A stretch of 36,062 nucleotides of DNA from contig SHUI01000011.1 in NCBI GenBank assembly GCA_009697455.1, positions 1 through 36,062 on the forward strand, written 5' to 3'. Position numbers and translations under genes: made by a program. This stretch comes from Bryobacterales bacterium. GTDB lineage: Bacteria; Acidobacteriota; Terriglobia; Bryobacterales; Bryobacteraceae. Within the stretch, counting starts at the first letter, position 1, and every line of letters begins with the position of its first letter. The notes under the pieces are model-generated. The model made no database searches. It was not told where the DNA came from and saw only the letters and a program-made list of their open reading frames with translations. Shown here piece by piece: positions 12,439 through 36,062 of the stretch.

Positions 12439-12627
12439 CCGACCCCGGGAGGACGGCTTACGGGCCTTTGCTTATGGCGATACGGTGCGATTTCAACGCC
12501 GTTGGACGCCGACTTGGCTAGGCGCTTTAGACGAAATCGAGGCAAGACATACCCGTAAAAGATTGATATAACATGGCTTACCACTATCATAGAGCGATTT
12601 GTGTGCGCGAGGCAAACCGGAGCCAAT

Positions 12628-12710
12628 GTACCGGTACTATGGTTCCAAAAAGGGGGATCGCGACAACCGGTACCGCATAGGCTTCCATTTCGGTCTGTTC
12701 TTGTGATACT
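12628..12710 (+). promoter_or_regulatory. Promoter region of the PEP-CTERM gene with two dyads
   Basis: The 297-bp gap from 12439 to 12735 holds no gene. It contains a perfect palindrome GTACCGGTAC (12628-12637) and a second palindrome CGGTACCG (12668-12675), which share the direct repeat ACCGGTAC at 36-bp spacing. Downstream is an extended -10 box, TGTGATACT (12702-12710), with no strong -35. A good Shine-Dalgarno GGAGGT (12721-12726) precedes ATG 12736. The dyads are candidate operators, about 70 and 30 bp upstream of the -10. Confidence 0.45.
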
Positions 12711-12735
12711 CTTGGCTTTCGGAGGTAAGCGTCAC

Positions 12736-13548
12736 ATGACAAAACAACTAAAGATCGGTATTGTTTCTCTCTTTTCCTCGGTGTTGGTGGCAAACCTGAG
12801 CGCCGCGTCGATTGATATCACGAACGCCTCGTTCGAGTTCCTTGGCGACTTGAACAACGCCAACCCTTCCCTGACCTGTGTTTTCCCAGGCGTGTTCCAG
12901 AACAAAGGTTGCCGGACGGACAACATTGTCGGCACTGGTTGGGTGGGTTCATCCAACGGCTCGGGCGACGGGTTTCGGTTCGGTGTTTTGACTCCGTATT
13001 TGGAAGGCGACACTAGACTGACCGGGGCTGTGCCCAAGGCGGCGTACATTGTTGGCGCGCAGGATGGTCTGAACTACGGTTATTCGCGGATCCAGGGTAC
13101 GAACACGCAAGTCGACCTGACCAACACGCTTAGCGCGGCGCTCCAGTTGAACATGTCGTACACGCTGAGAGTTATGGTCGGCGTCCGCAATCAGGCCGCG
13201 TCGGTGCCAATGTTCTCTATCATGCTTGGTACGGCGAACGGGTCCATACTGGCGTCGAGCTCAGCAGGTGGGCCGGTCCTTCCCGACGATAAGGGCACGT
13301 GGAAGGAAGTAACGCTGAATTGGACGCAACTCGCCAGCGACCAGAACGTCGGCAGTAACCTGCGGATTATTTTGCGGAACACAGGACCCAACGCCAACGT
13401 CGAGTTGGGTTTCGACAACGTTAGGCTGGATGGAGTCGAAGCGGCGTCAGCGCCGTCAGCAGTCCCCGAGCCAGCCACGATGTCGCTGCTCGGTGGTTCC
13501 CTGCTTGGACTCTTGGCGTACGGTAGAAAACGGGCGTCAAAAGCGTAG
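12736..13548 (+). CDS. PEP-CTERM sorted exported protein
   Basis: 270 residues. A Sec signal peptide (KIGIVSLFSSVLVANLSAAS) leads into a beta-rich domain beginning IDITNASFEF, with two or three cysteines (C47, C58 region) that may pair. The C-terminus is a PEP-CTERM tripartite signal: VPEPATMSLLGGSLLGLLAY, then a basic tail GRKRASKA. Such proteins are cut and anchored or released by an exosortase, usually linked to exopolysaccharide; no exosortase gene is in the window. The internal part resembles the DUF642/CBM-like 'NASFE' lectin-type folds but I would not name a family. ATG 12736 is fixed by GGAGGT nine nt upstream; a longer GTG frame from 12601 lacks support. A strong terminator follows. 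Confidence 0.85.
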   Translation: MTKQLKIGIVSLFSSVLVANLSAASIDITNASFEFLGDLNNANPSLTCVFPGVFQNKGCRTDNIVGTGWVGSSNGSGDGFRFGVLTPYLEGDTRLTGAVPKAAYIVGAQDGLNYGYSRIQGTNTQVDLTNTLSAALQLNMSYTLRVMVGVRNQAASVPMFSIMLGTANGSILASSSAGGPVLPDDKGTWKEVTLNWTQLASDQNVGSNLRIILRNTGPNANVELGFDNVRLDGVEAASAPSAVPEPATMSLLGGSLLGLLAYGRKRASKA

Positions 13549-33377: not shown

Positions 33378-33776
33378 ATGACTATGCAACGACCAATCCG
33401 AGTATTAGTAGCAAAACCCGGTCTTGACGGCCACGATCGCGGCGCAAAAGTGATCGCGCGCGCTCTCCGCGACGCAGGCATGGAGGTCATTTACACAGGC
33501 CTCAGACAGACTCCTGAGATGATCGTCAACGCCGCGCTGCAGGAAGACGTGCAGGTAATTGGCCTCTCAATCCTTTCGGGCGCGCACAACGCAATCGTGC
33601 CGCGCGTAATGGCGCTGCTGCGCGAGAAAGAGATGACGGACGTCAAGGTAGTCGTCGGCGGAATTATTCCGGACGAGGACGCGGAAGCGCTGAAGCGCGA
33701 CGGCGTGGCGGCCGTATTTCAACCAGGCGCGGCGCTTGAAGACATCGTGCGGTTCGTACGTGGAGCAGTTGGATAG
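33378..33776 (+). CDS. B12-binding small subunit of the acyl-CoA mutase
   Basis: 132 residues. The cobalamin-binding DxHxxG motif is [12 protein letters not shown] (D17, H19, G22); H19 is the lower ligand to cobalt. The other nucleotide-tail contacts are GLSILSGAH and [11 protein letters not shown]. Length and motifs match the small (B12) subunit of two-gene mutases. ATG 33378 (or 33384) is chosen; the frame runs open from GTG 33306 through the hairpins but that part is not protein-like. It sits 102 nt after the large subunit. A diverged broken copy of its last two-thirds lies at 35788. Confidence 0.93.
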
Positions 33777-33968
33777 CGGAGATTTGGCGGAGACTTGCAG
33801 CCGAGAGCCTGAGCCACGCGTCGTTTCGGCGAAGCCGATGCCGAGCACTCTCCGAAGAAAATGGGTTCGTGGACGTCGCACTTGGATGAAAGACGGGAAG
33901 TCCTTCCCCGCCAAAGTCAGCACGATAACGGCTCATTGAGAGTACGCTGAATTAAGGACAATCTGTCG

Positions 33969-35774
33969 ATGGCCATCGTCGTTCCCCAATCGGTCCTGGA
34001 ACTTCTCGAACGTATCGAGAGCGGTATTCAGCCGCTCAAAGCCTTCGAACTGGGCACTTCGCTAGGCGGGAAGCACCTTGCTGATGGCCTCTCGGAGGAT
34101 GAGAGAAAGGGGGCGTGGAGTGAAGTAGCGGCGTTCAACTTCATGTCGATGGGCTGGGAGGAAAGGAGTGTTTGGGGAACGCACTTCGGCCCCGTCTTTC
34201 AGCAGATCAGGAACGATGGTACTTCGCTAGAAACTCCAAGCATCACGGACATTGACGGCGAAAGTTTGGACTATTGGAAGGAACGCTCAAAGCAAACGCC
34301 CCATCCAGTCTTGAAATCCCGCTATGCCGATTTGGTGTGGGATCTTCATTCCGTGGTCACGAAGCAGAATCCCGAGATCGAGTTCGCTCAGCGTGCTATT
34401 GACGGTTACCTGGAGAGTGTGAACAGCAATCTCTACGTCGACCCAGCGATTGGTATCCGGCAGGGCCAACGAGCCATTGAACTCGCCCTTCGAATAGACG
34501 GCAGGAAGAGGATCGAAGAATCTAGCGGTGCACTTTTTGCCTTGCACGCTCAACTGACCCAAGCCCAAGTTGGCGGTGCCTTGGTCTTTCTCTTTGATGC
34601 GCTGTACACGAACAAAAGGGTCCCGTTGTCGGAGGAGCAGCAGAAGAACATCATCGATCTTCTGGAAGTAGATCTGGCTCGATGCACCAAGATGGAGGAC
34701 GGAGAGCGGTTCTCCCCTTGGGATGCAAAAGCGGCGGGAGAGCGCCTAGTCTCGCATTACAAACGGATCGGCCGCCAAGATGAAGTGGAACGAGTGGTCC
34801 GGCGCTACGGCGGCGCATTCGAGGCGATTAGCCAAGAAGCCGATGGGCTGCGTGGCATGACTTGGCTCCGTTCGACCGCTGAAGACTATCGGCGACAGGG
34901 GATGGCCCGAGATGCCGAACGGGTGCAGATCGCAGGCACAGAGAAAGGCAAGCAGGCCTCCGGTGAAATGAAGGAGCTTGCCTTTAGCGCTTCGATTGAT
35001 CGTAGTGAACTTGAAGCCTACTTCGATGCGATAACACAAGGGCCTCCAAGAGACGTACTTCGTCTAATCGCAGCCCATTTTATTCCCAAAACAAGCGATG
35101 CTGAGGAAGCGCTCAATATTCTTGAAAAGAAGCATCCCCTCATCGCGCTAATTGGAGTCGAGAAAATCAGCGAAGGGCATATCTCTGGACAAGCGGGGCC
35201 AATCGCCGAGGATCGAAACGGGCGACTCTATTTCAAGTTGGGAGAAAGCATCTCCTTTCGCGCCCCATTACTCCGTGGTAGTCTCGCGAAGACTTTCGAG
35301 AAGCATCATCTGACTGCGGAGTTGATTCTAGCGCACCTGTATGAGTCCCCCTTCTTCGATGACGATAAGCGGGATCTCATAAAGCACGGCCTCGAGGCCT
35401 ATTGCAGAAAGGACCACATCACCGCAATCAGCGTGCTGGTGCCACAGATCGAGCAGGGGTTGCGAGTGCTTCTGGGATTACTTGGCATGGCGATAAACGA
35501 GCCGAAGAAGGACGGAACCATGCAGCTCAAGAACTTAAATAGAATTTTGCACGAAAGTCCAGTAATCGGAGTGCTCGGAGAAGACACCACGAACTATTTC
35601 ATCGTGCTGCTGGCCGATTCGAGAGGATGGAATCTGAGAAATCGTCTCTGCCATGGACTGCTTGGTGCTGAGGATTTTCGGCAGGAAATTTCCGATAGAG
35701 TTCTCCACTGCCTCTTGGTGCTGGGCCTCCGCCGGAAGCCGACCCCATCTTCTGAACAGTCTCCAGCCGAATGA
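33969..35774 (+). CDS. DUF4209-type protein with a HEPN-like RNxxxHG motif
   Basis: 601 residues, cytoplasmic, no membrane segment. Mostly helical. The C-terminal region holds WNLRNRLCHGLLG: R557, N558 and H562 form the RNxxxHG motif that defines the DUF4209 family, and which corresponds to the Rx4-6H catalytic motif of HEPN ribonucleases. Just ahead is ISVLVPQIEQGLRVLLGLLG, a helix typical of these domains. The N-terminal 400 residues are not recognised. ATG 33969 follows AAGGA by nine nt. Codon use is visibly less G/C-rich than in neighbouring genes (many AAA, AAT, GAA, TTT), suggesting recent transfer. It stands alone between an intact B12-subunit gene and a broken copy of it. An RNase of defence or stress type is plausible; function is not shown. 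Confidence 0.75.
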   Translation: MAIVVPQSVLELLERIESGIQPLKAFELGTSLGGKHLADGLSEDERKGAWSEVAAFNFMSMGWEERSVWGTHFGPVFQQIRNDGTSLETPSITDIDGESLDYWKERSKQTPHPVLKSRYADLVWDLHSVVTKQNPEIEFAQRAIDGYLESVNSNLYVDPAIGIRQGQRAIELALRIDGRKRIEESSGALFALHAQLTQAQVGGALVFLFDALYTNKRVPLSEEQQKNIIDLLEVDLARCTKMEDGERFSPWDAKAAGERLVSHYKRIGRQDEVERVVRRYGGAFEAISQEADGLRGMTWLRSTAEDYRRQGMARDAERVQIAGTEKGKQASGEMKELAFSASIDRSELEAYFDAITQGPPRDVLRLIAAHFIPKTSDAEEALNILEKKHPLIALIGVEKISEGHISGQAGPIAEDRNGRLYFKLGESISFRAPLLRGSLAKTFEKHHLTAELILAHLYESPFFDDDKRDLIKHGLEAYCRKDHITAISVLVPQIEQGLRVLLGLLGMAINEPKKDGTMQLKNLNRILHESPVIGVLGEDTTNYFIVLLADSRGWNLRNRLCHGLLGAEDFRQEISDRVLHCLLVLGLRRKPTPSSEQSPAE

Positions 35775-35787
35775 AGTCGATTCGACG

Positions 35788-36062
35788 CCCTGAGACAAAC
35801 GCCGGAGGTAACTGTGAACACGGCGTTGCAGTAAGACGTGCAGGTCATCGGCCTGTCAATCCTGCCGGGCCCGCACAACGCGATCGCTCCGCGCATAATG
35901 GCGCTGCTGCGCGAGAAAGAAATGACGGACCTAAAGGTAGTCGTAGGCGGAATCATCCCGGACGAAGACGCGGAAGCGCTGAAGCGCGACGGCGTGGTGG
36001 CGGTAATTCAAACGGGGCGCGGCCCTCGAAGAAATCGTCCAGTTCGTCCGTTCGGCGGCCGG
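35788..36062 (+). pseudogene. Degenerate partial second copy of the B12-binding subunit gene
   Basis: Starting 14 nt after the DUF4209 gene stop, the sequence aligns with 33499-33776. It reads LRQTPE, TALQ, stop, [62 protein letters not shown] at 35832-35834 replaces GAA of the intact gene by one base change. An extra G in the run at 36014-36017 shifts the frame before ALEEIVQFVRSAA. The first ~40 codons, including the DxHxxG motif, are absent. Many differences from the intact gene are synonymous, so it diverged under selection before it broke. It is cut by the window edge. Confidence 0.9.

Follow-up and report, generated by a model that had tools for sequence, protein, structure and literature searches.

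A DUF4209 (HEPN) gene of the candidate defence family PDC-S39 between an intact and a decayed B12-binding gene in a Bryobacterales genome bin

The domain DUF4209 was placed among the HEPN domains in 2013 by Anantharaman et al. (PMC3710099), who predicted an RNase, noted links to restriction-modification (R-M) operons and recorded TPR fusions for the family. The same paper described the HEPN motifs Ex3[KR] and R-x4-H. Proteins of this type also appear, at near full length, in PADLOC-DB v2 as PDC-S39, a single-gene phage defence candidate. PDCs are 'guilt-by-embedding' candidates (PMC12988326, PMC10855318, PMC11878078) described in general as unvalidated (PMC12988326, PMC10855318), and Pseudomonas aeruginosa PAO1 is listed with a PDC-S39 (PMC11878078). 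No report of an experimental test of PDC-S39 was found in the literature searched, preprints and subscription papers lying outside that search. Among other HEPN proteins, RnlA (RNase LS) and AbiV are anti-phage RNases, of which the former has an antitoxin partner and the latter appears in the PDB as a member of a two-component system, while Csm6/Csx1 are the ancillary HEPN RNases of CRISPR systems.

The window, that is, the whole stretch of 36,062 nucleotides that was analysed, is an entire contig of a 4.49-Mb genome bin that is 74% complete. An uninterrupted ORF of 601 codons with an ATG start was present at exactly the positions given in the preliminary description, and a chance ORF is not a plausible reading because relatives aligned with the 601-residue protein almost end to end (28-44% identity; 44% for the closest relative in the same organism family). 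The features of the gene and its surroundings, all on the plus strand, were as follows.

33381-33776, plus strand: methylmalonyl-CoA mutase B12-binding gene, intact, bordering the locus on the left (Pfam B12-binding, 1.8e-27).
33777-33968, plus strand: leader of the DUF4209 gene, in which AAGGAC, resembling a Shine-Dalgarno sequence, lies 9 nt upstream of the ATG.
33969-35774, plus strand: DUF4209/PDC-S39-type gene, 601 aa (ORF, Pfam, PADLOC, near full-length relatives).
34182-34517, plus strand: Pfam DUF7380, residues 72-183 (E 2.5e-9).
34257-34967, plus strand: antiparallel helical-hairpin alpha-solenoid, residues ~97-333 (AlphaFold2 model).
35448-35717, plus strand: DUF4209, the HEPN domain core, residues 494-583 (Pfam, model, structure alignment).
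35451-35465, plus strand: E495-x3-R499, the acidic Ex3[KR] motif of HEPN, in helix 483-504 (E in 47 and R in 44 of 48 relatives).
35637-35657, plus strand: R557-N-R-L-C-H562-G, the R-x4-H catalytic signature of HEPN, conserved in relatives.
35781-36062, plus strand: decayed partial B12-binding copy at the right edge of the locus, to the contig end (in-frame TAA, frameshift).

Matches to Pfam DUF4209 (PF13910; residues 494-583, E 8.6e-15, 55 bits against a curated cut-off of 22.3) and to DUF7380 were shared with 46 and 43, respectively, of the 48 relatives. The two models of PDC-S39 matched residues 66-571 of 601 (E 3.8e-35 and 1.1e-30), with 69-581 of 615 profile positions covered; an NCBIfam search of the protein gave no match. 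Thus, the gene had been offered as the best candidate for an undescribed system, but PADLOC already lists PDC-S39 and the HEPN prediction with its R-M links dates from 2013, so that it is a further member of a known candidate defence family. No real difference from PDC-S39, itself an unvalidated candidate, was found. With the C6orf70/DUF4209 family of Anantharaman et al. the protein shares the DUF4209 domain, R-x4-H and TPR-like helical repeats, the R-M operon links being a further likeness found in some members. The eukaryotic C6orf70 proteins differ in having a transmembrane segment and an ER location (PMC3710099), whereas the window protein models as soluble and carries DUF7380, a contrast drawn from the published description, with the eukaryotic sequences outside the present alignment.

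Because its helical arm filled the match lists of the whole protein, the C-terminal part was folded separately. The AlphaFold model of residues 412-601 (pLDDT 95.7) was compared with PDB chains by VIA-align, and the top 20 matches, with modest Z values from 7.8 to 5.0, were all HEPN-type, i.e., HEPN entries or those listed as HEPN by Anantharaman et al. The best was AF0298 (Z 7.8, rmsd 3.1 over 113 aligned residues), and others included E. italicus Csm6 (Z 7.3), the HEPN-MNT toxin (7.2), sacsin (6.9), RnlA (6.7) and AbiV (5.5), as well as the MtlR-type YggD entry 3c8g, which is classed under HEPN in PMC3710099. The first unrelated fold appeared at Z 4.5. A non-HEPN fold had been named beforehand as grounds for abandoning the assignment; what was found is that HEPN entries precede any unrelated fold. 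Foldseek with the same residues returned no significant E-value, though HEPN entries were among its rows, and a sequence-profile search found no relatives with a solved structure. On the strength of the model, the HEPN assignment is considered secure, because the separation from unrelated folds is clean and the motif is conserved.

The reading of RNRLCHG as the HEPN ribonuclease signature held, the motif lying at residues 557-563 and being near-invariant among the 48 aligned relatives (R557 in 46, N558 in 44, H562 in 45 and G563 in 47). In the model R-x4-H occupies helix 556-561 and the following loop, with the polar N558 directly after R557. The near-invariant C-terminal residues, E495, R499, R557, N558, H562 and G563, are those described for HEPN (PMC3710099). 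By analogy with the HEPN relatives RnlA, AbiV, PrrC and Csm6, the window protein would be expected to cleave RNA independently of metal. Three relatives (L042, 10001-11734; L054, 5241-6995; L055, 4182-5987) have lost R-x4-H and therefore catalysis would not be universal in the family; they form one branch of the tree and keep the remainder of the protein, which suggests a non-catalytic offshoot. Related genes were noted upstream in all three loci.

What is shared with RnlA and AbiV is thus the HEPN fold, while no partner was found for the window gene and its N-terminal arm is, as far as compared, unlike theirs. The fold is likewise shared with Csm6/Csx1, but no CARF-type nucleotide-binding domain was seen in the window protein, which has an alpha-solenoid arm instead, and no CRISPR locus was seen. 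In the whole-protein AlphaFold2 model (mean pLDDT 93.6), residues 2-336 gave helical-repeat and TPR-like matches, the best at Z 10.7 to a designed repeat protein; such matches indicate a common arrangement rather than a function. With the whole protein, Foldseek found nothing at E<=0.001 in the PDB or among viral models. The N-terminal part had been called unassigned, which was only partly right, for DUF7380 (72-183), PDC-S39 (66-571) and the alpha-solenoid were all found there. The arm is presumed to be a sensor or partner-binding part. In a Mesorhizobium plasmid (L009, 9989-11781), the annotation divides the homologue into two abutting ORFs, the first of 1275 nt and the second the DUF4209 ORF, with a 4-nt overlap; this arrangement could be either a frameshift or a genuine split between arm and HEPN domain.

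From these features and those of related loci described below, it seems fairly probable that the window gene, a member of the DUF4209 (C6orf70-type) HEPN family that corresponds to PDC-S39, encodes an anti-phage effector that works as a single-gene system and spreads horizontally. This defence reading is supported, not proven. The protein would be made at a low level and kept inactive until the DUF7380 and alpha-solenoid arm sensed either something made by the phage or the breakdown of a host defence nearby. Recognition would release or pair the C-terminal HEPN domain, with putative activation as a dimer, and cellular or phage RNA would then be cleaved without metal via R557 and H562, helped by E495 and N558. 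Such cleavage would stop the infection, probably by abortive infection, and so protect against phage. More tentatively, the protein may be a self-contained sensor-effector, in which direct recognition of a conserved phage protein by the DUF7380/solenoid arm activates the fused HEPN RNase. If so, detection of infection and arrest of translation would be combined in one polypeptide, and phages themselves would keep the gene lodged between tail genes for use against their competitors. The evidence turns PDC-S39 from a label in a database into a defined protein open to testing, with a solved-type HEPN fold, named catalytic residues and a named arm, with the further assets that there is no partner gene to co-express and that a phage tail module carries a copy.

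A link to defence was supported by the neighbourhoods of relatives, for which a survey had been proposed. Proteins encoded within two gene positions of relatives (235 proteins) matched 139 and 212 PADLOC families as opposed to 30 for the 122 proteins of genes lying beyond 7 kb. At E<1e-60, distinct proteins with PADLOC matches numbered at least 16 of 235 near and 1 of 122 distal (Fisher p ~0.007), the enrichment counts being lower bounds and the loci partly related (L035, L036 and L039 are close relatives). Families represented among near neighbours included IetS, pAgo, BrxL, AbiEii, SNF2 helicase and type I R-M. IetS adjoins the relative in L043, an SNF2 helicase gene overlaps the DUF4209-family gene in L041, HsdS lies near the relative in L034, type I restriction subunits occur in L087, with related ones in L080 as well as L085, and in L007 the relative is followed by a caspase-domain gene. 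In a Geothrix bin (L059, 5377-12987), the end of HsdS overlaps the DUF4209 start by 4 nt and a Schlafen/AlbA-HATPase gene follows with overlapping ends, an array that is apparently an extended type I R-M operon. Seven of ten large neighbours scanned singly were looked at, with a mixed outcome; since five had no PADLOC match, the enrichment is real but far from universal. A neighbour in L036 considered as an Argonaute had no PDB match, and the pAgo matches were not traced to named genes.

The same neighbourhoods bear on whether the protein is instead a stress- or damage-triggered RNase, i.e., a mobile, toxin-like dormancy effector in the manner of RnlA or HEPN-MNT that is not specifically anti-phage. 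The toxin-antitoxin toxins HEPN-MNT and RnlA are among its nearest HEPN folds, and plasmid copies occur near toxin-antitoxin genes, but no antitoxin-like partner recurs beside relatives (none within 4 kb), the genes nearby belong to R-M, Argonaute, BREX and IetAS systems and not to stress responses, and one relative (L088) sits inside a phage tail module. This explanation is therefore judged unlikely.

Somewhat less likely again is a defence accessory that depends, as a PrrC-like second line, on a restriction system or helicase encoded elsewhere and does not stand alone. The tight packing with HsdS in L059, the HsdS of L034, the type I restriction subunits of three loci (L080, L085 and L087), the overlapping helicase in L041 and the R-M operons reported for the family (PMC3710099) would all suit such dependence; most loci, however, the window included, have no such neighbouring partner, and the type I R-M links concentrate in a divergent branch (L080, L085, L087; L085 and L087 in the tree). 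Within 4 kb, no family of ORFs of at least 50 aa was found repeatedly next to unrelated relatives; this agrees with a single-gene system and bears out the preliminary description, in which the gene stood alone without a partner. In the window itself, no other defence gene was found beside the DUF4209 gene, which adjoins a metabolic gene on its left and is followed on its right by the decayed B12-binding copy, inside which the contig ends.

Returning to the mobile anti-phage effector, the distribution of the gene is the patchy one of an accessory gene rather than a housekeeping gene, because it is rare in the phylum, absent from same-genus genomes and spread over phyla that are mixed on the tree. 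Thus, the gene was present in 4 of 101 genomes of close-to-moderate relatives and was not found in either of the two same-genus genomes, and DUF7380 was detected in 4 of 396 genomes of the phylum (~1%); the housekeeping distribution named beforehand as contrary evidence was not what these counts gave. Relatives were found in Pseudomonadota, Planctomycetota, Acidobacteriota, Bacillota, Actinomycetota, Nitrospirota, Bacteroidales bins and one archaeal bin. Phylum labels on the tree changed 13 times against a minimum of 8, i.e., they were clustered but mixed, with the proviso that some of the contigs are bins whose taxon may be misassigned. There are HEPN proteins that bind RNA but do not cut it (PMC3710099), and a eukaryotic branch of the family is ancient; both facts might suggest a housekeeping RNA-processing or RNA-binding protein, but carriage by only ~1% of phylum genomes, absence from both same-genus genomes and an intact, nearly invariant active site make this very improbable.

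Signs of mobility were also noted at individual loci. Plasmid-borne relatives lie near integrases, IS elements and toxin-antitoxin genes, and three of the 29 loci scanned (L014, L017 and L037) have a tRNA no more than 500 nt from the gene. A relative on an IMG/VR phage contig (L088, 7932-9803) is 37% identical to the window protein, and the two form a group with L014 that has 98% support. The L088 gene lies in reverse orientation between a tape-measure-family match and a weak phage-tail-protein match, the placement and direction expected of extra cargo in a phage. No record in the INPHARED phage collection encodes a relative at E 1e-5.

The gene had been described as foreign in composition. 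The lower GC is real, the DUF4209 gene at 54.1% being the lowest of the 17 window genes compared (56.8-62.4% in the other 16; 60.5% for the window), but its GC3 of 60.0%, although low, falls inside the range of the other window genes and is not the lowest. Composition alone would thus be weak evidence of foreign origin, and genome comparisons do better. In the leader (33777-33968) no sigma-70-like promoter was recognised, and an Rfam search of the locus gave no match.

The site itself was informative in this respect. The DUF4209 gene lies directly between the intact B12-binding gene, orthologues of which are 85-98% identical in five other Bryobacterales-family genomes, and its decayed partial copy. 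The latter begins at about codon 38, is 84-85% identical to 33500-33761 and has 80% protein identity to the B12-binding gene, with one TAA. In a genome of the same genus (G002, site L102), ~270 nt with no relation to the window separate the B12 gene from a 68-nt remnant that is 93% identical to the decayed copy and has the same shifted bases; a search of this site for a decayed DUF4209 gene found no trace. More distant genomes yielded no second B12-binding copy. Because G002 retains a remnant of the same decayed copy, the duplication predates the divergence of the two species. What lies between the copies is different in each, namely a 2.0-kb stretch with the DUF4209 gene in the window as opposed to ~270 nt in G002, and the two-genome comparison would fit either gain or loss of the gene. 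With an ancient partial duplication flanking unlike DNA in two congeneric species, this may be a small hotspot of exchange. Elsewhere in the window, positions 12601-13548 encode an HpiC1-like domain protein with a PEP-CTERM sorting signal.
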